Assembly: GCA_021324365.1 (NCBI GenBank)
Contig: JAJPJE010000023.1
Location: 1-35,473 of the forward strand
DNA: 35,473 nt
Source: Terriglobia bacterium
GTDB lineage: Bacteria; Acidobacteriota; Terriglobia; Terriglobales; Acidobacteriaceae
Direction of reading: 5' to 3'
Positions 1-18,919 of this stretch are shown piece by piece. Within the stretch, counting starts at the first letter, position 1, and every line of letters begins with the position of its first letter. The position numbers were made by a program, and so were the translations under genes. The notes beneath the pieces were generated by a model, which made no database searches, was not told where the DNA came from, and saw only the letters and a program-made list of their open reading frames with translations.

Positions 1-10
1 AAGGTGGGAG

Positions 11-252
11 AACTTCAGATGGGCTGACTTAGCTCAGAGAACCTGAAAGAGGAGAAGATGGTAACCAACTCTGTTGCCAGTCTATCACCTTTTGTACAAG
101 TTCAGCTGCCTCCTAGCTTGCTGATGGATTACGAACCGGTGCGGGCAACCTTGAGTTTTGACAAGCCGCCCAGATAAGCCTACGATGACAATTGAGTGAG
201 CAGTTTCTCTCCTCTTTCAGATTCCCTGAACTAAGTCAGCCCATCTGAAGTT
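11..252. repeat. MITE-like element with 44-bp terminal inverted repeats
   Basis: Positions 11-54 and 209-252 are reverse complements with 41 of 44 bases matching (mismatches opposite 221, 225 and 230). They flank a 154-bp core without a convincing ORF. The arms are far too long and too widely spaced for a terminator. A small non-autonomous transposable element or a paired-end remnant is the simplest reading. No clear target-site duplication is visible, and the left flank is cut by the window edge. A related single end occurs at 16266-16294. Confidence 0.6.
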
Positions 253-310
253 CCTTCCTCTTAGCTCGAACACCGGTGCGTTTCTTCTGCAGTCCGTGAA
301 AGGGCATAGT

Positions 311-1733: not shown

Positions 1734-1958
1734 CTACGATGCCGTTACTTCCCAGTCAACCGGAGGAAACTGCCGGGTGGTACCACCCTTTTTCCTCGTG
1801 CTCTGACTTCGGCCGCACGACAGACACATTGCTCCCACCTGCCTGATATCTGTCTCTTTCGATATTTCATTTTCACGCACGGCAAGAGAGCCGGCTATAA
1901 CCGGGCCAGCGCACACCTCACAGGGGTAGGCACAAAGATGAAGATATTGTTTTCTCAC
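1734..1958 (-). CDS. Small zinc-ribbon protein
   Basis: This 74-residue protein has two CxxC pairs (C13/C16 in PCEVC and C45/C48 in MCLSCG) around a short linker. That is the usual zinc-ribbon layout. The motif ETDIRQVG before the second pair matches small acidobacterial proteins I recall, none of known function. I start it at a GTG (1958) because AGGA lies 5 nt upstream; the open frame extends to 2084, but that start is a TTG without a ribosome site. It probably binds Zn as a structural or nucleic-acid-binding unit. Its role is unknown. Confidence 0.55.
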   Translation of the reverse strand: MRKQYLHLCAYPCEVCAGPVIAGSLAVRENEISKETDIRQVGAMCLSCGRSQSTRKKGGTTRQFPPVDWEVTAS

Positions 1959-2183
1959 GGAAATCCTAGAGGCTCTTACAAAAGGTAAAGTTGGCAGTTC
2001 AAACTGTCTGTTCACAATTGCTCTGTTCCGGCGGCTTCTCCGACCAATGACGAGACGACTGAGGTACCTGGGAGTGTTTGGCAAATGTGCGCATTAACTT
2101 CAGGGGTCCCTCGGCAGAGTCGCACGTTCGGGCATAGCGGTACGACTGAAGCCACCCATTTTCAAGGGAATTTGAAATACGGC

Positions 2184-2515: not shown

Positions 2516-2685
2516 CTCTGGCCGTTGGACCTGACTTCTATAAACATTCTGACCATAGAAACTTTCGGAACAAGTGAGCACTTCAGACCAGCCCTCCTGC
2601 CTTGAACTAGGCCATGATCGATATATAGAAAAAGGGCCGCTTCCCACTGATTTGAAGCAATGTAATCACCAGAAAAGGTAGAAAT

Positions 2686-3558
2686 GTGAAAATGAATTTT
2701 CGGAAGGGTCTTTGGACTCAAATAGCCCTGCTCTGTCTGTCGCCCATTCTGCTATTCGCTCAGACCCCTGATCTTGCGAAGAACTTGTCCAATTGTCAGG
2801 ATGGCTACGAACCCTGCGATCGCGCGAAGCTAACGCCCGCGGAATTAGAGGCCGTGGCGCTCGCCGGCCACCTCCGGAACCTCTCGAACTGCCGAAGCGG
2901 ACTCGACACCTGTGATCATTCGAAGCTCAGCGAGCAGGAGGCCGCTGCATTGGCAGTCGCTGACCACCGGCGAAACCTTTCCTCGTGCAACGACGGAATA
3001 GAGCCCTGTGACCGCTCTAAGCTGACTCCCGCAGAAGCTCGTGAAGTTACGCAGTCGGAACGCCAACATAATCTTTACGCTTGTAAGAACGCAATCGGCG
3101 ACTGTGATCGGTCAAAGTTGACTCCGTCGGAAATCGCAGAAGTCGACGAAGCAAAGCGACAGAGTAATGTTTTCGATTGCGAGAACGGAACGGGATTGTG
3201 CGACTATTCCGCCCTGTCTCCTTCAGAAACGCGGGAGGTAAACGCGGCTGAATATCAGCGTAATGCTGACCATTGTGAAAACCATTGGGGCGAATGCGAC
3301 CACTCTAAACTTACTCCACGCGACGCGCGTCAAGTTGCCACGGCTGAACAACGGCGGAATTTTGCCGCGTGTAAGAGCGGAGAAGAAACCTGCGATTATT
3401 CGAAACTCACCCCTCCCGAAGCGAAGCAACTGGCAGACGCCGAACACAAGCGCAACTACACAGCTTGCCTGCTCGGTCATGGTTATTGCGATCTGAGTCG
3501 ACTTACCGCTGCAGAAGCAAAGGCAATTCCGTCTCCACAGGAACCCCTTGCGAAATAG
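2686..3558 (+). CDS. Secreted cysteine-repeat protein (eight 32-aa repeats)
   Basis: The protein has 290 residues. A signal peptide (about 1-25, basic start, hydrophobic core, cleavage near LFA-Q) is followed from residue 33 to the end by eight repeats. Repeats 1-7 are exactly 32 residues with no indels. The repeat pattern is N-x3-C-x6-C-D-x-S-K-L-[ST]-P-x-E followed by a charged helix. Each unit has two cysteines seven apart, so one disulfide or metal pair per repeat is likely. I know of no described function. The regular register suggests a solenoid or a chain of small modules in the periplasm or outside the cell. A GTG start is chosen because AAGG lies 7 nt upstream; an ATG follows at 2692. 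A Crp/Fnr-like site lies upstream, and a metallothionein gene starts 35 nt downstream. Confidence 0.85.
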   Translation: MKMNFRKGLWTQIALLCLSPILLFAQTPDLAKNLSNCQDGYEPCDRAKLTPAELEAVALAGHLRNLSNCRSGLDTCDHSKLSEQEAAALAVADHRRNLSSCNDGIEPCDRSKLTPAEAREVTQSERQHNLYACKNAIGDCDRSKLTPSEIAEVDEAKRQSNVFDCENGTGLCDYSALSPSETREVNAAEYQRNADHCENHWGECDHSKLTPRDARQVATAEQRRNFAACKSGEETCDYSKLTPPEAKQLADAEHKRNYTACLLGHGYCDLSRLTAAEAKAIPSPQEPLAK

Positions 3559-4058: not shown

Positions 4059-5051
4059 CTACAATCGCTGCCGGCGTTCGGCAGCCCCGTTTGCATCTAG
4101 CCACTGAAGCAAAGCGCGCACGCTCGTGCGAGCCAGAGCAATGGAGCAATCGGCGGCTCCGTAATACAGATTGATGGTGTCTCCGTCGGCGTCCATCGTG
4201 TATCCACACGGGAAGACCACATCATCGACGTCTCCATGTCGCTCGTACTCCGCTTCAGGGCCAAAGATCCAGGAATCTCCACGCAGCAAACTTTGTTCTG
4301 GTCGCTTAAGGTCGAAGAGTGCCAAGCCTAATCGATAGAGACAGCCCGAAGGTGTGTGGCGAACCCCGTGATAGAGCACAAGCCATCCCCTGGAAGTCTC
4401 GATAGGAGGGGGCGACATTCCGATCTTGTTGGCGTCCCACCAGGCCCCGCGGCGTGCTTCCAGCATCACCTTGTGACGACCCCAGTGACGCAGGTCTGGG
4501 GAATACGAAATCCACATATGAGCGCCTAACGCTGTCATGGGCCGGTGGATGAGAGCCCAGTACCCCTCTATCTTGTGCGGGAAGAGGGCGGCGTCTTTGT
4601 CATCGGGTGACATGATTACGCCGTATCGCTCGAAGCTGCGGAAGTCGTTGGTCAGCGCGAGCGAAACCCCTGGACCGCCACGAGAATAAGAGGTGTAGAT
4701 CACGGCGTATTGCTTCAGTTCTGGCACGTAGGTGATCCGAGGATCCTCAATGCCCCAGAGTTCTTCCGGGTAATGATCCGGGTCCGGCATCAGCGTGGGC
4801 ACGGGATCGATCTGCCATCCATCCACGCCGTTGTTGGAACGCGCAGCGCAAAGATGCGACAGGCCTCGACGATCTTCCACTCGGCAGAGCAGGAGAGTAG
4901 TTCCATCCTCGAGTCTTGTAGCGCCGGGGTTAAAAACGGTATTGATCGGATACGGCCAGCTTTTGCTGGTCAAGATTGGATTGGCGGGATGGCGATGTAG
5001 CAGTGGCGTGTCATCGTGCGCGCTTTCCATCGTTGCATTACTGGCGGTCAT
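4059..5051 (-). CDS. GH130 family glycosidase/phosphorylase
   Basis: This 330-residue protein fits the five-bladed beta-propeller GH130 family, which cleaves or phosphorolyses beta-mannosides. Visible motifs are NPGATRLEDGTTLLLCRVED (41-60), GIEDPRI (100-106) with the probable catalytic acid D103, the S-x-D-x-K-D-A-A-L-F-P blade (about 148-157), NKIGMSPPPIE (208-218) and LVLYHGV. I cannot decide between phosphorylase and hydrolase from memory. The ATG at 5051 overlaps the stop of the GT4 gene (ATGA), with GGAG about 5 nt before it; a longer frame to 5237 lies inside the GT4 gene and is rejected as the start. It is the last gene of a three-gene operon. The pairing suggests synthesis and turnover of a mannose-containing glycan. 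Confidence 0.88.
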   Translation of the reverse strand: MTASNATMESAHDDTPLLHRHPANPILTSKSWPYPINTVFNPGATRLEDGTTLLLCRVEDRRGLSHLCAARSNNGVDGWQIDPVPTLMPDPDHYPEELWGIEDPRITYVPELKQYAVIYTSYSRGGPGVSLALTNDFRSFERYGVIMSPDDKDAALFPHKIEGYWALIHRPMTALGAHMWISYSPDLRHWGRHKVMLEARRGAWWDANKIGMSPPPIETSRGWLVLYHGVRHTPSGCLYRLGLALFDLKRPEQSLLRGDSWIFGPEAEYERHGDVDDVVFPCGYTMDADGDTINLYYGAADCSIALARTSVRALLQWLDANGAAERRQRL

Positions 5052-8055: not shown

Positions 8056-8751
8056 CTACTTCCCGCTCTCCGCAACAGCTTGCGCTTTAGCGTTTTTGAC
8101 TGCATTTAAGAACGCGTCGGCCGACGCTGGCGCCGGGATCTTGCCCAAGAGTGCGGCCTTTGTAGTGACATGACGGCCGTAGATGGATTCCATGGAATCG
8201 TCATCGCGTCGAATCGATGCACCGGAGAGGGTCAATCCGGCAAAGGCGCCTTTGGCGCGAGAGTAAGTCAGTATTTCCGTGTCCAGCTTCCAATCTGTGT
8301 TGGCGGAGGCATGGCGGCCTACAGGTCCCGCGGCTGCCGAAGCATCTGCTCCCAACTGAAACTTGCTCGTCAGCAACTTGCGCATGCCCTTCTCGTTCTG
8401 GATGATCATGACCAGATCGACACCCTCGAGACCAATCTGTAACCCCCAGCTGCCACCCGTAATCGCGAAGAACGCTGGCGCGCTCCATCCGGTCGCAGTT
8501 CGGCATGTGGCGACGCCCCTGCCGTTCTCCGCTCCGAATACGAAACCGCCTTTGATCATGTGCGGCACCACGGCCACGCACTTTGCATGTTCCAGGACTT
8601 CTTCGGGAATTCCGTTGTCCGGGGCGGCCATGATTTCACGCAGAACTTTGCCTGCATTATCGAGGCGATCAGTCGACGATTCGAGATTGGACTCGGCCCA
8701 GCTCAAGCTTGCCAGGCTAAGTAACACAACCAACAACATCAGTTTCTTCAA
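8056..8751 (-). CDS. SYLF (Ysc84/DUF500) lipid-binding domain protein
   Basis: This 231-residue protein has a signal peptide (1-19, ending SWA) and one SYLF domain spanning almost the whole mature part. Typical SYLF segments are visible: AKCVAVVPHMIKGGFVFGAE near residues 56-75, GWSAPAFF with a following GGSWGLQIG, LGADASAAAGPVGRHA, and a late YSRAKGAFAGLTLSG. SYLF proteins bind phosphoinositides in eukaryotes; the bacterial secreted forms have no settled role. It is divergent from the Crp/Fnr gene at 8951. The palindrome at 8852-8867 lies between them, and a weak minus-strand hexamer, TAGTGT (8830-8825), sits 29.5 bp from its centre, so shared control is possible. Confidence 0.88.
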   Translation of the reverse strand: MKKLMLLVVLLSLASLSWAESNLESSTDRLDNAGKVLREIMAAPDNGIPEEVLEHAKCVAVVPHMIKGGFVFGAENGRGVATCRTATGWSAPAFFAITGGSWGLQIGLEGVDLVMIIQNEKGMRKLLTSKFQLGADASAAAGPVGRHASANTDWKLDTEILTYSRAKGAFAGLTLSGASIRRDDDSMESIYGRHVTTKAALLGKIPAPASADAFLNAVKNAKAQAVAESGK

Positions 8752-8851
8752 GCTTCACACCTTATTTTTTCTACCCCTGCGCGCTTTGTTTGGTATGCGT
8801 TTCTCGGCGCATGAGGTACTTCGTACACTACCGGGACTGCATGAAACCTTC

Positions 8852-8867
8852 TGAGCAAAAGTGCTCA
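8852..8867. promoter_or_regulatory. Crp/Fnr-like operator, perfect TGAGCA-N4-TGCTCA
   Basis: This is a perfect 6-4-6 palindrome (spacer AAAG). A strong -10 hexamer, TATACT (8890-8895), starts 30.5 bp from the centre on the plus strand. The centre is therefore near -42, as in class II Crp/Fnr activation, giving a predicted transcript start near 8902 and a leader of about 50 nt before the Crp/Fnr gene at 8951. The perfect copies at 11937 and 15539 support a shared operator. Confidence 0.7.
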
Positions 8868-8950
8868 CTCCGGTACTTAGGAAGTGGACTATACTTTCGG
8901 TAAGTCGGCGAGAACTTCGATTCCATCCCATCTCGTCCGAAGGGAAATCA

Positions 8951-9703
8951 ATGCCGGCTCAAAGTCACTCAGCATCGACCAAAAAAGGCCGGAAATCCCA
9001 CCATTCGCCAAACTTGGGTAAATTGGGTAAAGGGGATGCGGCACCTGATCGCACCGCCACAGCTGAAGCATTCGTTCCACGGCTGTTCTTGACAAAACTT
9101 AACTCGGGAAAGTCCAGCCAGGAGTACCAGAGCGGTGAGTCGGTGTTTGCCCAAGGCGATGCGGCGGACGCCGTGTTCTACATCGAGATCGGGAAAGTGA
9201 AGCTTACGGTAGTATCGAAGCGCGGCAAGGAGGCGGTAGTTGCGCTATTGCCCGAAGGGTCATTCTTCGGCGAAGGCTGTCTGGCAGGCCAACCGCTTCG
9301 CATGTCCACCGCCGGCTGCCTAGCGCGGAGCACCATCGTCCGCGTGGAGAAATCGTCGATGCTGGACCTGCTGCATCGCGAGCCGGAGTTTGCGGAACGG
9401 TTTTTATGCTACGTGCTTTCCCGAAACATTCGGATGGAAGCGGATCTGGTGGACCACCTTTTTAACTCCAGCGAGAAACGTCTGGCGCGCCTTTTGCTGC
9501 TGTTGGCCAACTTTGGGCAGGAGTCAAAACCGATTCCGGTAATCGCGAAAATGAGCCAGGAAACTTTAGCCGAAATGGTGGGCACCACTCGCTCGCGCGT
9601 GAGTTACTTTCTAAACCGATTCCGAGAATTGGGCTTTATTGATTACAACGGCGAGGGCATGCATATTCATAGTTCATTGATCAGCGTCGTGCTTCACGAC
9701 TAG
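8951..9703 (+). CDS. Crp/Fnr family transcription regulator (paralogue 1)
   Basis: This 250-residue protein has a basic, probably disordered N-terminal extension (1-40). Next comes a cyclic-nucleotide-binding-type beta-barrel (about 50-165; FAQGDAADAVFYIEIGKVKL, GSFFGEGCLAG), then a dimer helix and a C-terminal winged HTH with SQETLAEMVGTTRSRVSYF. The barrel has no cysteine cluster like Fnr, and its ligand is not evident. In the recognition helix, the Glu and Arg that E. coli CRP uses to read TGTGA appear replaced by Ser and Tyr, which fits a different operator. The ATG at 8951 follows AGGG by 6 nt; the frame runs back to 8861, inside the operator. It shares strong similarity with the gene at 14838. 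The upstream palindrome suggests autoregulation. Confidence 0.88.
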   Translation: MPAQSHSASTKKGRKSHHSPNLGKLGKGDAAPDRTATAEAFVPRLFLTKLNSGKSSQEYQSGESVFAQGDAADAVFYIEIGKVKLTVVSKRGKEAVVALLPEGSFFGEGCLAGQPLRMSTAGCLARSTIVRVEKSSMLDLLHREPEFAERFLCYVLSRNIRMEADLVDHLFNSSEKRLARLLLLLANFGQESKPIPVIAKMSQETLAEMVGTTRSRVSYFLNRFRELGFIDYNGEGMHIHSSLISVVLHD

Positions 9704-9758
9704 CGACGAGCAGACGCACCCCGACTCTGCCGACCGACCCAGCGATCCGTTGATGAGC

Positions 9759-10028
9759 CTATTCGTTGTGCTGTCGTACCACTGCTGACGACAAGCGGCG
9801 CTTTGAGTCCAGAACCCTCAGGAACAACATGAATAGAAGCAGCACCAATCCATTGGTGACAAGCGCCGAGTTAATCGAGATCGCGAACGGTAGCAGCGAA
9901 CTGAACACGCCGACGAAAGCGGTGGCTACGGGCACCCAAAGGAACGCAGCGCGTCGTTCCACGTAAGTGAGTATCGCAATAGCTACAGCCCAGATCGCCA
10001 ACATCAACACCACGACGGTCGTCGGCAC
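9759..10028 (-). CDS. Small integral membrane protein, 89 aa
   Basis: Three hydrophobic segments (about residues 3-22, 28-48 and 52-71) are followed by a basic tail with RVLDSKRR. The start is a GTG at 10028 with GAGG 5 nt upstream. No family is recognised. It is convergent with the Crp/Fnr gene, 55 nt away. The regular hydrophobicity and the ribosome site argue that it is real. Confidence 0.5.
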   Translation of the reverse strand: MPTTVVVLMLAIWAVAIAILTYVERRAAFLWVPVATAFVGVFSSLLPFAISINSALVTNGLVLLLFMLFLRVLDSKRRLSSAVVRQHNE

Positions 10029-10163
10029 AAAAACCTCGATTCACGGCCGCCCCCGCCGCGAACTTTAGCCAGGCGGAGAGATTGCCAGGATCAGTATCAG
10101 CAATTCGGCATCGGAGCGCTGATCAACATTGACCCTGTGGACAAAAGCCATCCTTCAGTAAAG

Positions 10164-10179
10164 TGAGCAAAATTGAACA
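10164..10179. promoter_or_regulatory. Crp/Fnr-like site TGAGCA-N4-TGAACA
   Basis: The left half is perfect and the right half has two mismatches (spacer AAAT). The hexamer TAAAGT (10201-10206, 4 of 6 to TATAAT) starts exactly 29.5 bp from the centre. This puts the centre at -41.5 of a start near 10213, about 27 nt before the GTG of the receiver gene at 10240. Confidence 0.55.
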
Positions 10180-10239
10180 TCCTGCAGCTCTGGATGCCGG
10201 TAAAGTTTCCGTAGTGATGGCAAAAGTGGGAGCCCGTCG

Positions 10240-10680
10240 GTGACTTCAAAAGGCAAACTTCTCTGCGTACATAGCGACATCGCCCAGCTGCAGCACCGTA
10301 AACTCTTGCTGGAAGAAAATGGATACATCGTAGCGACTGCGTGCTCGAAAGAAGATGCTGTAAGGCTGCTTAAGTCGGAGGCGATCGATGCAGTGGTGGT
10401 GGACTACATAGATGATTCGCTGTTTGTGCCTAAGCAAATTAAGCAGGTCCGACCAAGGGTGCAGATAGTCGTAGTGGCGAATAAGCTCGACCTTCCTGGC
10501 GCAGCAACCGATTCAGCTGATGCCCTGGTAGCGAGTTTCGATGGACCCCAGTTTCTATTGGATACCCTGCATTTTCTATTGCAGGTGAAACCGAATCAAC
10601 TACCAATAAATACCCAAAGCGATCGCCAACGTTTTGCCGACAGTATAGCCTCCGCCTGGAGAGACCGCGTCAGAAGATAG
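10240..10680 (+). CDS. Degenerate response-regulator receiver domain protein
   Basis: This 146-residue single-domain protein has the receiver beta-alpha pattern: LLCVHSD strand 1, then VVVDY with the candidate phosphoacceptor aspartate, then IVVVANK. Key sites are altered. The acidic pair of strand 1 is reduced to one Asp, the Thr/Ser of strand 4 appears to be Ala, and the conserved Lys is not in its usual place (ALVASFDGP). It may therefore be a phosphorylation-independent receiver. There is no output domain; the tail (about 115-146) is polar. The GTG start at 10240 has GGGAG 7 nt upstream. It lies 60 nt after a Crp/Fnr-like site. Confidence 0.7.
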   Translation: MTSKGKLLCVHSDIAQLQHRKLLLEENGYIVATACSKEDAVRLLKSEAIDAVVVDYIDDSLFVPKQIKQVRPRVQIVVVANKLDLPGAATDSADALVASFDGPQFLLDTLHFLLQVKPNQLPINTQSDRQRFADSIASAWRDRVRR

Positions 10681-10818
10681 CCTTTGATGAGGTGGTGCAT
10701 CTTCGATGACGGATTGACTCGCTGCCGAACTTTTGCACTGGCCCCACCGCGAATATTCCTTTCTCATTCTGGGGTGTTAGTCAAAACGCGTCACTCGATC
10801 CTGAGCGGGACCGCTTCC

Positions 10819-10834
10819 TGGTCACTTTTGACCA
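10819..10834. promoter_or_regulatory. Palindrome TGGTCA-N4-TGACCA
   Basis: A perfect 6-4-6 palindrome (spacer CTTT) with the same geometry as the TGAGCA sites but different bases at positions 3 and 4 of the half-site. A weak hexamer, AATGAT (10856-10861), starts 29.5 bp from the centre. The response regulator at 10917 begins 82 nt downstream. Most of its right half is repeated at 14768-14777. It may be bound by the second paralogue or another Crp/Fnr member. Confidence 0.5.
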
Positions 10835-10916
10835 GACGAGAGTTGCCGCATTTGCAATGATTCGGAACGTGGGGCCAGCTTAGCGGAAACTGCGTTGCTG
10901 GCCGAGGATATGTGCC

Positions 10917-11576
10917 ATGAACAACTTGTCGAAGCACCTGATTCTTGTCGTGGACGATGAAAAGAGAGTCCGCGAGAGTACGGCCCTCGTCCTCCGCTCT
11001 GGTGGATACGACGTTAATACCGCTGAAGATGGCTTCGATGCCCTGTTGCAGTTACGAAACGATCCGCTGCCGGAGGCCATCATCTCCGACCTGAACATGC
11101 CGCAAATGTCAGGATTCGAGTTTCTCTCCGTGGTGCGCCGTCGCTTTCCGGAAATAGCGGTCATAGCCATCAGCGGAGCTTACGAGTCCGGTGATCACGT
11201 CCCTGGTGGAATTATTGCAGACGCCTTCTATGCCAAGGGGCATCATCGTCCCGAGGAACTGTTGCGTACCCTCGCTGAGTTGATTCGAACCAGAGCGGAA
11301 CAAGCAGCACACCATCGTGAGCAACCTGCCCCTGTATGGATACCTCGCAATGGTAAAGATTCAAAGGGAGTGCCCTTCATCGTGCTGACCTGTACGCAGT
11401 GTCTGCGATCGTTTCCCTTGAGCATACCGCGAGAAGACGTTCACGAAGTCCAGGAGACACCCTGCCTATTCTGCTCAAGCCCAGTCCGCTATGTTATCGA
11501 CTTCTCCCTTGATGTGAAATCACCGACGTGGCACGAGCCGCAGGTTAAGGCGAATCGTGCCAAGTTGGGCCCCTAG
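10917..11576 (+). CDS. Response regulator with C-terminal four-cysteine domain (paralogue 1)
   Basis: This 219-residue protein begins with an intact receiver (about 5-125): acidic pair D13/D14, phosphoacceptor D58 in SDLNMP, S86 in the strand-4 position and K107. A linker (WIPRNGKDSKGVPF, 141-154) leads to a short domain with CxxC pairs C159/C162 and C183/C186 and the ending PVRYVIDFSL. That looks like a zinc ribbon. It is not a known DNA-binding output and could bind RNA, DNA or a partner. The ATG has GAGGA 7 nt upstream. A close paralogue lies at 12025. A palindrome at 10819 suggests Crp/Fnr-type control. Confidence 0.85.
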   Translation: MNNLSKHLILVVDDEKRVRESTALVLRSGGYDVNTAEDGFDALLQLRNDPLPEAIISDLNMPQMSGFEFLSVVRRRFPEIAVIAISGAYESGDHVPGGIIADAFYAKGHHRPEELLRTLAELIRTRAEQAAHHREQPAPVWIPRNGKDSKGVPFIVLTCTQCLRSFPLSIPREDVHEVQETPCLFCSSPVRYVIDFSLDVKSPTWHEPQVKANRAKLGP

Positions 11577-11645
11577 AAAAGAGCACGTGACACGTAAGCA
11601 TCGAGCACCACTCGATGGGTAAAGCTGATATCCGAAAGGTGAGCT

Positions 11646-11882
11646 ATGGAGTGCGCATTCGCTGACAGGTTAAGAAAAGTTGCCTTGGTCTCGATGACAT
11701 CTGAAATAAGGGCCCGCGACAAGCAGCGCGATTCACGGCCTAAGGAAACGGAGCGCAGTAGCCGCGGCGGACCCAACCTGCAAGCATTGCGGTCCAGAAC
11801 TGATCTGGACCGGAAAGCCCTTCAAGAGCACATCGCAAGTTGCATTCGATGCCGGGGTTGCGAACCACGTCCAGCTTTGTAG
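11646..11882 (+). CDS. Small ORF with HxxxCxxC motif
   Basis: This 78-residue ORF has AAAGGTGA just before its ATG. It is very polar and basic, and ends with ALQEHIASCIRCRGCE. The H-x3-C-x2-C element resembles the zinc-binding anti-sigma (zf-HC2) signature, but the N-terminal part of that domain is not visible and there is no membrane helix. It may be a small zinc protein or a fragment. It lies between the two response regulators, separated from the second by about 140 nt containing a perfect operator. Confidence 0.4.
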   Translation: MECAFADRLRKVALVSMTSEIRARDKQRDSRPKETERSSRGGPNLQALRSRTDLDRKALQEHIASCIRCRGCEPRPAL

Positions 11883-11936
11883 CCGCCCGATTCATCCGGA
11901 TTCAACCTAGTGCGGACGAGCGTGTTTGTAGCCGGG

Positions 11937-11952
11937 TGAGCAATATTGCTCA
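11937..11952. promoter_or_regulatory. Crp/Fnr-like operator, perfect TGAGCA-N4-TGCTCA
   Basis: A perfect palindrome (spacer ATAT), 72 nt before the response regulator at 12025. The hexamer CACAGT (11974-11979) at 29.5 bp is poor; TAAACA at 11981 is an alternative. The distance to the gene is similar to that of the sites at 8852 and 15539. Confidence 0.65.
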
Positions 11953-12024
11953 GTCACGAACTTACAAAGAGGCCACAGTGTAAACAGCTACTTTTGCGAC
12001 TAACGCAGAAGAGAAGTGCGGGCC

Positions 12025-12729
12025 ATGAGTAAAACATCAAATCGCAGAATTCTGGTGGTAGACGACCAGCCACGTATCCGCGAGGTCATGGCAGAGGTGT
12101 TGAGTGAGGCCGGGTACGAGGTCAACACCGCGGAACATGGTTTGGATGCTCTTTCGCTTCTGCGGAAGTTCACCCCGGAAGTCATCATCTCCGATCTGAA
12201 TATGCCTCTAATGTCAGGATTCGAACTGCTGTCGGTAGTGCGGCGTCGCTTCCCCGACATTCTCGTGATCGCAATGAGCGGCGCATACCAGTCGGGCGAC
12301 CACGTTCCGGGAGGAGTCGTCGCCGACGCATTCTTTCCGAAGGGCCGGCTGCAGATGGACGAGCTTCTGCTTGCGCTAGCAAATTTGATTCAAGCCAAGT
12401 CAGCGGGAGCGATCGACCATCAGCGGCAGTCGGCTCCCGTTTGGATACCGCGCAACGGCAAAGACTCGAATGGGGTTCCTTTCATCGTGCTAACCTGCAC
12501 GGACTGCCTGCAGTCTTTCCACTTGAGCGTACTCCAGGAAGAGGTCCAGGAAATTCAGGAAACCCGCTGTATTTTCTGTGAAACCCCGGTCAGATTCATC
12601 ATTGATTTCTCTCTCGCCGTTTCTTCACACAAAACAAATTCGGAGTTTTCGAGCAGCCGATTATTACCCGTTTCGGGCGCGACTTCTTACCAGTGGGTAA
12701 GGCAGCCTAAGGAAGAGCACAAGGCATGA
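12025..12729 (+). CDS. Response regulator with C-terminal four-cysteine domain (paralogue 2)
   Basis: This 234-residue protein has an intact receiver (D13/D14, D57, S85, K106), nearly superimposable on the protein at 10917; stretches such as SDLNMP and SGAYxSGDHVPGG are shared. The same linker (WIPRNGKDSNGVPF) precedes CxxC pairs C158/C161 and C182/C185 and RFIIDFSL. A 30-residue polar tail is added. I start at the ATG 12025; an in-frame GTG at 12016 is possible. The stop overlaps the STAS gene start by 4 nt, so the two are translationally coupled. A perfect operator lies 72 nt upstream. Confidence 0.85.
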   Translation: MSKTSNRRILVVDDQPRIREVMAEVLSEAGYEVNTAEHGLDALSLLRKFTPEVIISDLNMPLMSGFELLSVVRRRFPDILVIAMSGAYQSGDHVPGGVVADAFFPKGRLQMDELLLALANLIQAKSAGAIDHQRQSAPVWIPRNGKDSNGVPFIVLTCTDCLQSFHLSVLQEEVQEIQETRCIFCETPVRFIIDFSLAVSSHKTNSEFSSSRLLPVSGATSYQWVRQPKEEHKA

Positions 12730-13097
12730 CAATCGATTCACGCGCCGTCGATGGTGTGACCATTTTCGACCTGAACGGGCGAATCACGTTGGGGGAGGAC
12801 ACAGTGGCGTTCCGGAGTGCTATCGCAGGTCTCATCGCGGATGGCCGCAAGATGGTCCTGCTCAACCTGAATGGCGTTCCCTACATTGACAGTTCCGGTC
12901 TTGGGGAGCTTGTGGCTGCGTTCACCAGGGTTCGTGACTCAGGCGGAAAACTGAAGCTGCTCAATTTGTCGCCTAAGATCCGCACTCTGATGATGATTAC
13001 CAAACTAAACTCCGTGTTTGACGTTCAAGAAGACGAGACCGCCGCCATTCAGTCCTTCACGGTCGGTACTCCTCATGGTCTCAGCGGACAAAGCTGA
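12726..13097 (+). CDS. STAS domain protein (anti-sigma factor antagonist type)
   Basis: This 123-residue protein is a single STAS domain, as in SpoIIAA/RsbV: FDLNGRITLG (14-23) and the phosphorylation loop YIDSSGLGELV (53-63), with the serine pair S56/S57, one of which is the expected phosphosite. Family members release a sigma factor by binding its anti-sigma kinase when unphosphorylated. No kinase or phosphatase partner is seen nearby. Coupling to the response regulator (ATGA overlap) suggests the pair act together in a partner-switching pathway. The radical SAM gene starts 83 nt downstream. Confidence 0.88.
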   Translation: MTIDSRAVDGVTIFDLNGRITLGEDTVAFRSAIAGLIADGRKMVLLNLNGVPYIDSSGLGELVAAFTRVRDSGGKLKLLNLSPKIRTLMMITKLNSVFDVQEDETAAIQSFTVGTPHGLSGQS

Positions 13098-13180
13098 TCG
13101 CACTCCAACACGGACCTGAGCCTCTGTACGTTTAGCGCGCCGCGATATCAACACCTAACACTACACGAGGTCATCGGCAA

Positions 13181-14737
13181 ATGAGAGTTCACCTTGTTAA
13201 CCCGAGCGATGTTTCTTTCGGAACTGCCGTCATAACTCCGCGGTGGCTGTTCGTGATTGCCGCCGCTACTCCGAAATCGTTCGGCGACCCCGTCCTTGTG
13301 GACGAGACGCTGAGACAAATCGAGGCGGCCAACGTTCGCGAAGGCGACGTCTTGGGGATCAGCATCCACACAGGCAATGCGCTGCGTGGCTACGAGGTCG
13401 GCAGAATGGCCCGGAGTCGCGGCGCTTACGTAATCTTCGGAGGAATTCACGCGACGCTCTACCCCGAAGAAGCTCACGAACTCGGCGGTGCACATGCCGT
13501 GGTGAAGGGCGATGGAGATATGGTGTGGGCGACGGTACTCGACGACTGCGTGAATGGCGCTCCCAAGCCCATCTACCACGGTGGACGAATTGAGGCCTCC
13601 GCTTTCCTGCCCGCTCGCTGGGATTTGATCTCGCGTGAGTCTTACATGTGGGCATCTGTCCAGACGATTCGCGGATGCCCTAAGCATTGCTCCTTCTGTT
13701 CTGTGTGGAAGACAGACGGCCAGCGTCCGCGGCAGCGTGCCTCAGATGCAGTCGTGGAAGAGATCGTGGAATTGCGGCGACTTGGCTTCCGTTATATAGC
13801 GCTGGCCGACGATAATTTCTATCCGGTAAGTCTTACCGACTTGAAGTTGGCGGCCCGTCAAAGCCCTGAAAGATTTCAGGAACTTACTCGCATCCGTGCC
13901 GAACGCTTCGACCTGATGTGGCGCCTGTCGCAACTTCCTTCTGATACAGTCTTTTTCACGCAGATAACCATGGAGGCCGCGGAAGACCCTGAGTTCCTGG
14001 AAGCGATGAAAGCGGCACGCATCAAGGGTGCGCTTGTCGGCGTGGAGTCAGTCACTCCTGAAGGCTTGAAAGACGTGTACAAGGACTTCAATTCAGCTGG
14101 TGAGAACCTGGTTGAACGGCTGCAAACGTTCCGGCGCCATGGCGTTCACGTGCTCGGATCGTTCATCTTCGGGCTGCCGAGTGACCGACCAGACACCTTC
14201 AACGCTACTGTTTCTGTCGCGCAAAGGGCCGAGCTGACCTTTGCACAGTTTGTGATGTTGACTCCGTTTCCTGGCACGGTTGACTTTAAGAAATGGGAAG
14301 AAGGCCTTGGAGCTTCGGTTCCAGAAATAGCGGGCATACCAATTACGCGGCGCTGGCTGATTCCCCACGCGGTGCGACCAAAACTCTATATTCCGCACCC
14401 GGTTATGGCGGCCGAAGAAATCCGGGAACGCACCCAACAGGTTTGGGACCGCTACTACAGCTGGCGTTACATCTGGAAGCGCTCGACCTTCCTGAACTCG
14501 ATCAAGAGTCGCCTTGCCTTTCTGCTGATCTCCAGGATTTATCGTCACATGTACGCTGACACCGGCATAGCCAGCGACAGCGCTCGGATAACCTGGTCGA
14601 GCCGCTGGGCTCGCTGGTTAGCCCGACCGTGCCAAAAATTGTTTGCAGGTCGCCCCATGCCGCATCTTCAAGTACCACAAGCCGGATCTGAACTCGGAGG
14701 CGCAGTTGCCAACTGGCCCGCCGGTGCTGTTGGTTGA
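13181..14737 (+). CDS. B12-binding-type radical SAM protein
   Basis: This 518-residue protein has an N-terminal Rossmann-like cobalamin-binding-type domain (about 1-140; GISIHTGN, YVIFGGIHATLYPEEA) and no classical DxHxxG motif, so any cobalamin would bind base-off without histidine ligation. The radical SAM core starts with RGCPKHCSFC, giving the [4Fe-4S] cysteines C166, C170 and C173. It continues with LADDNFYPV, GVESVTPEGLKDVYKDFN and FGLPSDRPDTF. The architecture is that of hopanoid, lipid or methyltransferase B12 radical SAM enzymes. The C-terminal 100 residues are basic and aromatic, possibly for membrane or substrate contact. The substrate is unknown. GAGG lies about 10 nt before the ATG. 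Confidence 0.85.
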   Translation: MRVHLVNPSDVSFGTAVITPRWLFVIAAATPKSFGDPVLVDETLRQIEAANVREGDVLGISIHTGNALRGYEVGRMARSRGAYVIFGGIHATLYPEEAHELGGAHAVVKGDGDMVWATVLDDCVNGAPKPIYHGGRIEASAFLPARWDLISRESYMWASVQTIRGCPKHCSFCSVWKTDGQRPRQRASDAVVEEIVELRRLGFRYIALADDNFYPVSLTDLKLAARQSPERFQELTRIRAERFDLMWRLSQLPSDTVFFTQITMEAAEDPEFLEAMKAARIKGALVGVESVTPEGLKDVYKDFNSAGENLVERLQTFRRHGVHVLGSFIFGLPSDRPDTFNATVSVAQRAELTFAQFVMLTPFPGTVDFKKWEEGLGASVPEIAGIPITRRWLIPHAVRPKLYIPHPVMAAEEIRERTQQVWDRYYSWRYIWKRSTFLNSIKSRLAFLLISRIYRHMYADTGIASDSARITWSSRWARWLARPCQKLFAGRPMPHLQVPQAGSELGGAVANWPAGAVG

Positions 14738-14761
14738 TAACGGCTTGCTGCCTTTGGCACA

Positions 14762-14777
14762 TGATCCCTTTTGACCA
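14762..14777. promoter_or_regulatory. Degenerate palindrome TGATCC-N4-TGACCA
   Basis: It shares the ten bases CTTTTGACCA with the perfect palindrome at 10819; the left half has two mismatches. TAGGAT (14799-14804, 4 of 6 to TATAAT) starts exactly 29.5 bp from the centre. A start near 14811 is predicted, before the Crp/Fnr gene at 14838 (or its alternative ATG at 14820). Confidence 0.45.
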
Positions 14778-14837
14778 GCCCCTGCGCCATCGTCCCAGTA
14801 GGATTGAGTAGTTCATTCGATGCATCACTGGGCCATT

Positions 14838-15491
14838 ATGACAAAGGCAAATTCTAATGTTTTCGATCACCTGAATCTTTTCGAAAGGATTGGGAAGCAG
14901 GCCACCACGAGAGACTACAACAACCATGAGGCAATTTTCACGCAAGGCGAGCAGGCCGACGCGATGTTCTACGTGCAGAATGGTCACGTCAAGTTAACGG
15001 TGAAGTCTACAGGTGGGAAGAAAGCTGTGATCGCCATTCTGAAGCATGGTGATTTTTTTGGCGAGAGTTGTTTGGCGGAACACTCGCTGCGAACCTCCAC
15101 GGCATCGGCAATCCAATCCTCCACTGTCTCCAGAGTAAGACGGGCGACGATCATTCGAACCATCCAGCGACAGCCTACTTTTGCGAAGCTCTTTATCTCC
15201 TATCTGCTGTTTCGCGTTGCCAGGTTTCAAGATGAGTTCGTCGATCAGATCTTCAGCTCCAGCGAGAAGCGACTGGCCAGAATTCTCTTAATGCTGGCTG
15301 GCTTTGGGCAGCAAACGAATCCAGAGCCAGTCCTGCTGAAGGTGAGCCAGGAGACTTTAGCAGAAATGGTTGGTACCACCCGCTCGCGAGTAAGCTTTTT
15401 CATGAATCGCTTCCGGAAGCGGGGATTCATCGACTACAACGGCAGCTTGCGTGTGCACAAGTCTCTGCGAAACTTTCTGCTGCAAACCTAA
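14838..15491 (+). CDS. Crp/Fnr family transcription regulator (paralogue 2)
   Basis: This 217-residue protein lacks the long N-terminal extension of the paralogue at 8951 but shares the cNMP-type barrel (FTQGEQADAMFYVQNGHVKL, GDFFGESCLAE), the SSEKRLARILLMLAGFGQ hinge helix and an almost identical HTH, SQETLAEMVGTTRSRVSFF. The shared recognition helix predicts a shared or very similar operator. The start is uncertain: ATG 14838 and ATG 14820 are both in frame and neither has a strong ribosome site. Candidate operators lie before it (14762) and after it (15539). Confidence 0.87.
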   Translation: MTKANSNVFDHLNLFERIGKQATTRDYNNHEAIFTQGEQADAMFYVQNGHVKLTVKSTGGKKAVIAILKHGDFFGESCLAEHSLRTSTASAIQSSTVSRVRRATIIRTIQRQPTFAKLFISYLLFRVARFQDEFVDQIFSSSEKRLARILLMLAGFGQQTNPEPVLLKVSQETLAEMVGTTRSRVSFFMNRFRKRGFIDYNGSLRVHKSLRNFLLQT

Positions 15492-15538
15492 TTCTTAATC
15501 ATCCTTTTTTAAGAAGCTCGATGCGGGCAGACGTGGCC

Positions 15539-15554
15539 TGAGCACTATTGCTCA
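15539..15554. promoter_or_regulatory. Crp/Fnr-like operator, perfect TGAGCA-N4-TGCTCA
   Basis: A perfect palindrome (spacer CTAT), 48 nt after the second Crp/Fnr gene. TAGTTT (15576-15581, 3 of 6) starts 29.5 bp from the centre. The downstream genes are the small ORF at 15636 and the HTH protein at 15892. Confidence 0.65.
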
Positions 15555-15635
15555 GAAGCTTCGAGTTCCAACTGCTAGTTTGGGACATATAGCCGCGTAA
15601 GATCGCCTGGAGATAGGGAACCGGCCGGAGGTTAG

Positions 15636-15878
15636 ATGTCTGCACTTTTCAGTTTTCAAGTCAGCACGCTCTGGCAAGAGTGTTGTCGCAGGATGAACGT
15701 CAGGAGAACCAATCGCGAACGCGCAGGCGATCAGTCGCCATCCCGTGAACCAACTACTGAGCGCCTTCAGGAGGAAGAAGCTTGGTCACGAATGGATGAC
15801 GACGGAGCTCCGACGACCACAGCACCGGGCCGTAAGGGTACTTGGAGACAATCGATGGTTTCACGAAATAAGAAATAA
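15636..15878 (+). CDS. Small polar ORF, uncertain
   Basis: This 80-residue ORF starts 82 nt after a perfect operator and has GGAGG 4 nt before its ATG. The product is polar and of low complexity (charged residues, Thr, Pro), with no recognised domain. Another frame (15745-16116) overlaps it and runs into the HTH gene at 15892, so one of the two is not coding or the region is a leader. I keep it because of the operator and ribosome site, at low confidence. Confidence 0.35.
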   Translation: MSALFSFQVSTLWQECCRRMNVRRTNRERAGDQSPSREPTTERLQEEEAWSRMDDDGAPTTTAPGRKGTWRQSMVSRNKK

Positions 15879-15891
15879 AAGGAGCGGTGGC

Positions 15892-16116
15892 ATGCGTTGC
15901 CATTGGGAAAAACTCGGTGTACTTGGTCCTATTTATCGCTTAGTGAGCCAAGGACTCGACGATCGTGCCATTGCCGATCGGTTGAATATTCCTGAAGAAA
16001 TGGTTCAAGGCTGCATTGCTTGGTTGTTGCGCTTTCTGCCATGCCAAAGCCGTGAAGACCTGGTTCTAAGCATTTCAGCCAAACAAACTGGTAGATGGAT
16101 ATTGGGTGCGGCGTGA
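15892..16116 (+). CDS. LuxR-type HTH small protein
   Basis: This 74-residue protein is centred on LGPIYRLVSQGLDDRAIADR and a following LNIPEEMVQGCIAWLLRFL. The Q/EGLxDxxIAxxLN...VQ pattern is the LuxR/GerE recognition fold, with the usual arginine-rich contact replaced. AAAGGAG lies 7 nt before the ATG at 15892. The same frame is open back to 15745, so a longer form (123 aa, from the ATG at 15745) cannot be excluded. It lacks a receiver. It may be downstream of the perfect operator at 15539. Confidence 0.65.
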   Translation: MRCHWEKLGVLGPIYRLVSQGLDDRAIADRLNIPEEMVQGCIAWLLRFLPCQSREDLVLSISAKQTGRWILGAA

Positions 16117-16265
16117 CTTGCCTCATCAGGCACATGAGCACCTTGCGCGGATTCATGCACTCTGGAATAAAGTTTTCTTCGAGGCTACCTGCCGAACTTT
16201 TCGCGCACCTAACTTGTCAAACCAATATCTTGTTAGTGCCACTACTCATGTGGCGCGTTCAGGTT

Positions 16266-16294
16266 TTCTGATCTAAGTCGGTTCATCTGAAGTT
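16266..16294. repeat. Solo end related to the MITE-like inverted repeat
   Basis: It matches the right arm of the element at 11-252 (224-252) in 23 of 29 bases, including the last eight bases ATCTGAAG plus TT. No partner arm is visible within the preceding 200 nt. It lies upstream of the BON gene, in a 266-bp region without a gene. Confidence 0.45.
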
Positions 16295-16382
16295 CAATCC
16301 CTTAGAAAACGCAGTCGGATCGAAGCGCTGCGGACGACCTCTGTAGGCTCCCTTGGTTCGATCCAGATACAAGGAGAATTCC

Positions 16383-18476: not shown

Positions 18477-18919
<443 letters not shown>

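Follow-up and report, generated by a model that had tools for sequence, protein, structure and literature searches.

The described systems closest to the one that we report here, in which two Crp/Fnr paralogues (crp1 and crp2) are encoded among copies of a TGAGCA-N4-TGCTCA palindrome on a 35,473-nt contig of a soil bacterium, a member of the Terriglobia and the Acidobacteriaceae (JAJPJE010000023.1, assembly GCA_021324365.1; hereafter, the window), are CRP, FNR, FixK, DNR and NtcA. The CRP proteins of Escherichia coli and Mycobacterium tuberculosis share with crp1 and crp2 the two-domain fold, and act from the class II position that we propose here. In the CRP box, TGTGA-N6-TCACA, the outer TG/CA bases are in the register of those of our 16-bp operator, but the inner part of the half-site differs, being AG, TT or GT followed by C in our operator and TGA in CRP, and two of the three base-contact residues of CRP, Glu181 and Arg185, are replaced in the island Crp helix. 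FNR, FixK and DNR also have the Crp/Fnr fold, as well as the 4-base central spacing and the class II activation at -41.5 that we propose for the island operator, which however differs from the FNR-type box, TTGAT-N4-ATCAA. NtcA, finally, is among the best fold matches of the crp1 model and its operator has the same outer TG/CA, but the inner bases differ, and no nitrogen-assimilation family is present among the 25 of 46 target families listed. The palindrome of the window is very probably the operator of a Crp/Fnr subfamily that includes crp1 and crp2, and would serve class II activation within a local self-activating network. A dimer would read TGNNCA-N4-TGNNCA, with TGAGCA, TGTTCA or TGGTCA halves around an A/T-rich centre, and would activate promoters with a -10 hexamer from a position at -41.5, or sometimes -42.5. 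Since the candidate sites of the island precede both crp genes, three receiver proteins (RR1 and RR2 among them), a STAS and radical SAM unit, and the Ysc84, small membrane and cysteine-repeat genes, the regulators would switch on themselves and their neighbours. Operators, promoter geometry, conservation and co-occurrence with the Crp subfamily come directly out of the computation, whereas binding by a Crp protein, activation rather than repression, and the sharing of one operator by crp1 and crp2 are predictions from these sequences. Our literature searches, which did not extend to Matsui 2013 (PMC3590769), where one might be given, returned no description of this operator; as far as we found, the subfamily is common yet unstudied in the literature searched.

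A preliminary description of this DNA had reported perfect palindromes at 8852, 11937 and 15539 and a degenerate one, TGAGCAAAATTGAACA, at 10164, and a search of the window recovered all four. It had also considered that the 16-mer might occur at random positions throughout the genome, and the scan speaks against this: the 4,444,665-base genome contains three exact copies, all of them in the window, and no copy of the backwards control. The degenerate pattern TGDKCA-N4-TGMHCA has 11 matches in the genome, five of which fall in the window (three for the backwards control), and in a set of 61 genomes the exact 16-mer is found in 12, our own included. At two mismatches the genome has 157 matches against 101 for the control, a noisy excess of about 56 that may leave room for weak sites elsewhere in the genome. 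In the window alone, loose matches (up to three mismatches) amounted to 19 when 17.35 were expected, hence no excess; mismatch counting within the window has no power, and exact and composite models were used in its place.

The second line of evidence is the geometry of the putative promoters. A total of 62 strict sites, including those of the window and of regions chosen because they carry a site, were collected; a gene lies within 400 bp of 51 of them, and on one side only of 34, so that each of the latter could be oriented by its sole gene starting within 400 bp, with promoter information left unused. A -10-like hexamer (NA3NT, that is, an A and, four bases on, a T) is found at offset 29 or 30 on 25 of the 34 downstream sides and on 4 of the 34 upstream sides (downstream, 18 sites fit offset 29 and 9 fit offset 30, two of them counting for both; upstream, the numbers are 0 and 4); the ratio holds when two rows from the window and five from site-chosen regions are removed (20 of 27 against 3 of 27). 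Because a hexamer at offset 29 predicts a site centre at -41.5, which is the class II position, where a site overlaps the -35 region, this distribution statistically confirms the placement near -41.5 predicted from the -10 elements, as had been suggested in the preliminary description. Of 16 one-sided hybrid sites with exactly one TGAGCA half, mostly from relatives, 13 have this half on the side away from the promoter and 3 on the side next to it. A composite model of operator plus -10 element was then trained without the window; at a threshold of 15, reversed training loci gave one hit in 1.52 Mb, counted strand-wise, while the window (71 kb strand-wise) has nine sites above it, namely 11937, 10164, 15539, 8852 (in both directions), 10819, 2009, 14762, 2575 and 10120, five of which (10819, 14762, 10120, 2575 and 2009) had not been recognised before. 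Knowledge of the operator and of its geometry would make the regulons mappable, with predicted transcription starts.

The third line is the co-occurrence of the palindrome with the Crp subfamily in 300 genomes of the same family, where genomes were called Crp-positive on a match to the crp1 query at E <= 1e-45 and up to nine candidates were scored per genome. The subfamily is present in 170 of them, some with at least nine copies, and the exact 16-mer occurs in 94 of these 170 against 17 of the 130 Crp-negative genomes (Fisher p 2e-14, relatedness ignored). The mean number of sites per genome rises from 0.16 to 0.51, 0.88 and 1.8 at 0, 1, 2-3 and at least 4 Crp matches, respectively, while the backwards control stays at 0.06-0.15, and the totals are 189 sites and 30 controls. 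Composite sites are densest near crp genes, with 0.51/kb at distances of up to 1 kb and 0.06/kb at 9-12 kb, and 19 of 49 crp genes have a composite site within 450 bp upstream, which would make autoregulation common, not universal. The 16-mer thus tracks the Crp subfamily and its copy number, and not the neighbouring RR2: a site is present in 52 of the 91 genomes with the subfamily and no RR2, in 1 of the 8 with RR2 and no Crp, and in 16 of the 122 with neither. These figures bear on the possibility that the sites are bound by another regulator whose gene accompanies the Crp genes, for example a response regulator or a small helix-turn-helix (HTH)-like protein, and that the Crp genes are mere targets. 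In its favour, receiver proteins are frequent first genes behind the sites (7 of 76 scanned) and 30 of the 49 crp genes have no composite site in the 450 bp upstream; on the other hand RR2 fails to explain the sites, even if the comparison includes only eight genomes with RR2 and no Crp, a Pfam scan found a receiver and no DNA-binding domain in RR1 and RR2, and a 16-bp site with outer TG/CA centred at -41.5 suits Crp/Fnr proteins. We therefore consider such a regulator quite unlikely, and a subfamily Crp the better candidate. As a separate observation, five genomes that belong to a single genus (G121, G173, G244, G313 and G319 of g35) share TGAGCA-TTCC-TGCTCA, in this or the reverse-complement form, which may be an unrelated conserved sequence that adds background to the 300-genome count.

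The preliminary description had proposed TGAGCA-N4-TGCTCA as the operator; this reading gains support from the co-occurrence above, and the operator itself is broader than had been thought, with three half-sites that mix. When dyads with spacers of 0-14 were counted in 605 intergenic stretches (239 kb, from a set to which the window and 10 regions chosen for carrying a site also belong), TGAGCA-N4-TGCTCA was the commonest 6-mer dyad, N runs aside, with 20 occurrences against 7 for the next; among 5-mer dyads at spacer 6, again N runs aside, TGAGC-N6-GCTCA was found 33 times, TGTTC 9 and TGGTC 7, and the TGTGA dyad of the CRP box was absent from the top dyads listed. Nor do the listed intergenic dyads resemble the FNR, FixK and NtcA boxes, in a comparison that involved no dedicated scan. 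TGAGCA, TGTTCA and TGGTCA halves combine freely, as in TGAGCA-N4-TGAACA. A LexA-type site was also considered and rejected, the orientation of the half-sites being reversed relative to GAAC-N4-GTTC.

Dyads of the three half-sites were counted in 41 Crp-homologue regions, after removal of the window, of L036 (which shares its contig with L088), of L120 and of the 10 site-chosen regions. In this set 46 are intergenic and none is coding, even though the coding part exceeds the intergenic part 2.7-fold in length; letter-permuted controls, about 300 in number, averaged 0.13 intergenic and 0.27 coding dyads, and none had more than one intergenic dyad. Some of these regions (from genomes G009, G015, G022, G023 and G030) had been drawn for a Crp gene plus a known exact site, and 8 of the 46 intergenic dyads have two exact TGAGCA halves, a part of them already known at the time of that choice, so that any bias is limited to these eight. 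We acknowledge that genes in the relatives were called by a purpose-written script that misses small genes, and that these genomes are often metagenome assemblies in short contigs. That the palindromes might be repeats, such as ends of mobile elements or hairpins, with no operator function is suggested by a 46-nt inverted repeat at window 10-253, typical of a small mobile element. This explanation is extremely improbable, as half-sites, flanks and spacers vary between sites, the 46 dyads are all intergenic, and -10-like hexamers favour the gene side as described above.

Both crp1 (8951..9703, plus strand) and crp2 (14820..15491, plus strand), which are paralogues with 47% identity, match the cNMP-binding domain PF00027 and HTH_Crp_2 (PF13545) above cut-off. 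A fold model of crp1 (9014-9703) reached a predicted local distance difference test score of 85 and had Tth CAP, GlxR, M. tuberculosis CRP and NtcA as best PDB matches, with template modelling scores of about 0.5 and root-mean-square deviations of 11-14, the domain arrangement not being reproduced. The same recognition helix, GTTRSRV, is present in both proteins, as well as in 49 of 52 homologues. Aligned to M. tuberculosis CRP and numbered as in E. coli CRP, the helix keeps the equivalent of Arg180, has Ser in place of Glu181, and has mostly Phe or Tyr, but also His, Ser, Asn or Lys, at the position of Arg185. Arg180, Glu181 and Arg185 are given as the specific base contacts of CRP, and such residues are rated as highly conserved across the tree (PMC12531629). 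That the contacts and the inner half-site are both changed, and the outer TG is kept, would fit the expectation, and a helix without two standard base-contact residues, paired with a new half-site, would offer a direct test of the Crp recognition code. No cysteine is invariant among the 30 members of our alignment A2 (30 of the 52 homologues, none of them one of the three with a helix other than GTTRSRV), which makes an FNR-type cluster unlikely. In the cyclic AMP pocket, M. tuberculosis CRP and the subfamily have an aligned Glu and Arg in the phosphate-binding cassette, but the C-helix residues that contact adenine differ.

The pairing of such operators with Crp genes of the same helix recurs on plasmids of Bradyrhizobium japonicum and Methylocapsa. 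The plasmid homologues of Methylocapsa, Methylocystis and B. japonicum show 55-65% identity to crp1, and the GTTRSRV helix is found in them and also in the homologues of Granulicella and Acidisarcina; plasmid records label the homologue as a Crp/Fnr family transcriptional regulator only. That homologues occur in named Bradyrhizobium, Methylocapsa and Granulicella strains adds to the interest of the system. In Bradyrhizobium plasmid p1S06B (572,704 bases), five of six degenerate matches fall in a 17-kb stretch that surrounds the Crp genes and also holds CsbD, GlsB/YeaQ/YmgE and PRC-barrel genes; in pS11L-1 two of three are within 2 kb of its crp, in Methylocapsa the single match is about 80 bp before its crp, and in Acidisarcina one of four is within 1 kb of a crp. 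Taken together, six records have 19 degenerate matches and no match of the backwards control. Because the Methylocapsa plasmid record carries hybrid sites and a single Crp match, hybrids may not need heterodimers of two paralogues, a use that we also considered. In a phylum-wide search, a crp2 homologue (1e-45) was found in 13 of 149 genomes, and 8 of 24 loci had a strict or one-mismatch site. A tentative extension, which we think less likely to be right than wrong, is that a GTTRSRV Crp activator, its own operator code and nearby stress-type genes form a portable module, which would reside on chromosomal islands or plasmids and pass between Acidobacteriota and Alphaproteobacteria; if so, a newly arrived module would bring its own promoters and switch.

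Several observations weigh against the palindrome being the operator of this subfamily, among them the 30 crp genes mentioned above. The exact 16-mer is missing from 76 of the 170 Crp-positive genomes and present in 17 of the 130 Crp-negative ones. The pairing thins outside the family, where 3 of 16 loci have a strict or one-mismatch site; a Granulicella plasmid has five matches, all at least 30 kb from the three annotated Crp genes of the stretch fetched, Methylocystis has no pattern match and one weak composite site (15.6), and Bradyrhizobium sp. CB82 has no site in 16.5 kb. The 17-kb locus of a third, more distant Crp of the same genome (contig 122; 35% identical, E 1.4e-33, helix GTTRSRVNTFMN) is free of composite sites, so that local sites do not follow from the helix by itself, and the third Crp could be the protein that binds the palindromes. 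The corresponding alternative, namely that the sites belong to the third Crp, or to several Crp proteins, rather than chiefly to crp1 and crp2, draws on the closeness of its recognition helix (GTTRSRVNTFMNRF) to that of crp1 and crp2, and is contradicted by the lack of sites around its own gene, by the clustering of sites around crp1- and crp2-type genes, and by the 300-genome association, whose limit the third Crp misses; we rate it as unlikely. Lastly, 17 loci of the same genome outside the island (12 from the two-mismatch listing and 5 new degenerate-pattern loci, picked by operator match) were scored with the composite model, and four exceed 15: 21.5 on contig 72, 17.8 on contig 123, 17.7 on contig 118 and 15.5 on contig 65. 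Open frames overlap all four, of at least 185 codons at three and of 123 codons at the contig 72 site. About six chance hits on both genome strands would be expected by extrapolating the null rate, itself from a single null hit, and as four is close to this prediction the island stands out; the concentration of sites in it is clear. An operator target may nevertheless exist outside the island, contig 72 foremost, where TGTTCAATTTTGCACA at 5000-5015 (1501-1516 of L125) has a -10-like TAAGCT at offset 31; no clear gene follows on the plus side, and the site immediately precedes a small frame on the minus strand that starts near 1499 of L125. With these points weighed, a subfamily operator is still the reading that we favour, and we turn to the individual sites on that basis.

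Homologues of the island genes were searched for a composite site in the matching orientation in the 450 bp before the gene, with the 10 site-chosen regions included, and the base rate among other genes of the same regions is 93 of 486. Between the Ysc84-domain gene (8056..8751, minus strand) and crp1, the operator TGAGCAAAAGTGCTCA at 8852..8867 scores 26.4 in both directions, with -10 hexamers TAGTGT (8825-8830, minus strand, offset 29) and TATACT (8890-8895, plus strand, offset 30). Its intergenic position is repeated twice in G015 (L083 and L084), and 8 of 13 Ysc84 homologues have a site. On the plus strand, the hybrid TGAGCAAAATTGAACA at 10164..10179 (score 27.0; -10 TAAAGT at 10201-10206, offset 29), identical in L034, precedes a short receiver-like protein (10240..10680, plus strand; 23 bits against a Pfam cut-off of 30.2), two of whose three homologues have a site. 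The operator TGGTCACTTTTGACCA at 10819..10834 (plus strand; score 24.6; -10-like AATGAT at 10856-10861) precedes RR1 (10917..11576, plus strand; a receiver with a CxxC-bearing C-terminus), 8 of 16 homologues of which have a site, with TGGTCA halves likewise in front of those of L082 and L088. The top-scoring site of the window, TGAGCAATATTGCTCA at 11937..11952 (plus strand; score 29.6; -10-like CACAGT at 11974-11979, offset 29), heads the unit of RR2 (12016..12729), an RR1 paralogue, the STAS-domain protein (12726..13097) and the B12-binding/radical SAM protein (13181..14737), all on the plus strand; one of two STAS and five of six radical SAM homologues have a site of their own. The C-termini of RR1 and RR2 contain, by eye, paired CxxC motifs (CTQC...CLFC and CTDC...CIFC), unnamed in Pfam and perhaps a metal-binding output domain.

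Ahead of crp2, the degenerate operator TGATCCCTTTTGACCA at 14762..14777 (plus strand; score 21.3; -10 TAGGAT at 14799-14804) matches the presence of a site close upstream of crp2-type genes in L082, L085, L086, L088 and L099. Just 3' of crp2, the operator TGAGCACTATTGCTCA at 15539..15554 (plus strand; score 26.9; -10 TAGTTT at 15576-15581, offset 29) likely has as its target the next unit, which starts with an 80-aa open reading frame (15636..15878, plus strand), as both homologues of this frame carry such a site upstream; an HTH-like frame within 15745-16116 (HTH by eye, no Pfam match) is also behind it, and an exact site downstream of the crp2 homologue of G015 (L082) has the same placement. 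The -10-like hexamers proposed earlier are in place at 8852, 10164, 11937 and 15539. On the minus strand, the degenerate operator GGGTCAATGTTGATCA at 10120..10135 (-10 GATACT at 10093-10098), the lowest-scoring accepted site (16.3), precedes a small membrane-like protein (9759..10028, minus strand; no Pfam match), three of whose four homologues carry a site. For the cysteine-repeat gene (2686..3558, plus strand), whose product is secreted-looking, the previously proposed site TGAGTCAGATTGCTCA at 2500 did not hold up, scoring 14.2 in the minus orientation, and the degenerate operator TGAGCACTTCAGACCA at 2575..2590 (plus strand; score 20.5; -10 CATGAT at 2613-2618) is the better candidate; two of three homologues have a site. 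This protein has about eight cysteine-bearing repeats, and homologues of about 50% identity occur in L085, L093 and L106. The degenerate operator AGAGCAATTGTGAACA at 2009..2024 (minus strand; score 21.7; -10 TACCTT at 1982-1987) precedes a possible 74-aa CxxC protein (1734-1958, minus strand) whose GTG start, placed by inference, is about 17 nt past the start site predicted from the operator. The preliminary description had looked to orthologues for conservation of the sites, and the counts for Ysc84, RR1, radical SAM, small membrane and cysteine-repeat genes provide it.

Among the other genes scored, a site precedes homologues of a glycosyltransferase (3 of 6), BON (1 of 2) and hyp1167 (1 of 4), and none was found before those of GH130 (0 of 7), GlyZ (0 of 2), hyp7497 (0 of 2), hyp296 (0 of 5) and mem820 (0 of 3). 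Of 77 first genes behind sites, 76 proteins were scanned, a frame antisense to crp (L096:5537-6427) being left out; in the 25 of 46 families listed, the most frequent were Crp (13), receiver (7), radical SAM (5), Ysc84 (4), B12-binding (4), OmpA (3) and DUF5670 (3), and ice-binding, alcohol dehydrogenase, glycosyltransferase, PAS kinase and P-type ATPase proteins appeared once or twice. If we were to guess, target genes and plasmid neighbours point to an envelope or general stress response.

An Rfam scan of the window returned no match. The inverted repeat at 10-253 has arms that are 93% complementary and separated by 152 nt, and resembles a small non-autonomous mobile element; near 16265-16310, an end sequence with partial similarity to it can be made out by eye. 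Also by eye, about 15 CT dinucleotides follow one another at around 18678-18712 of the window, between small open reading frames.

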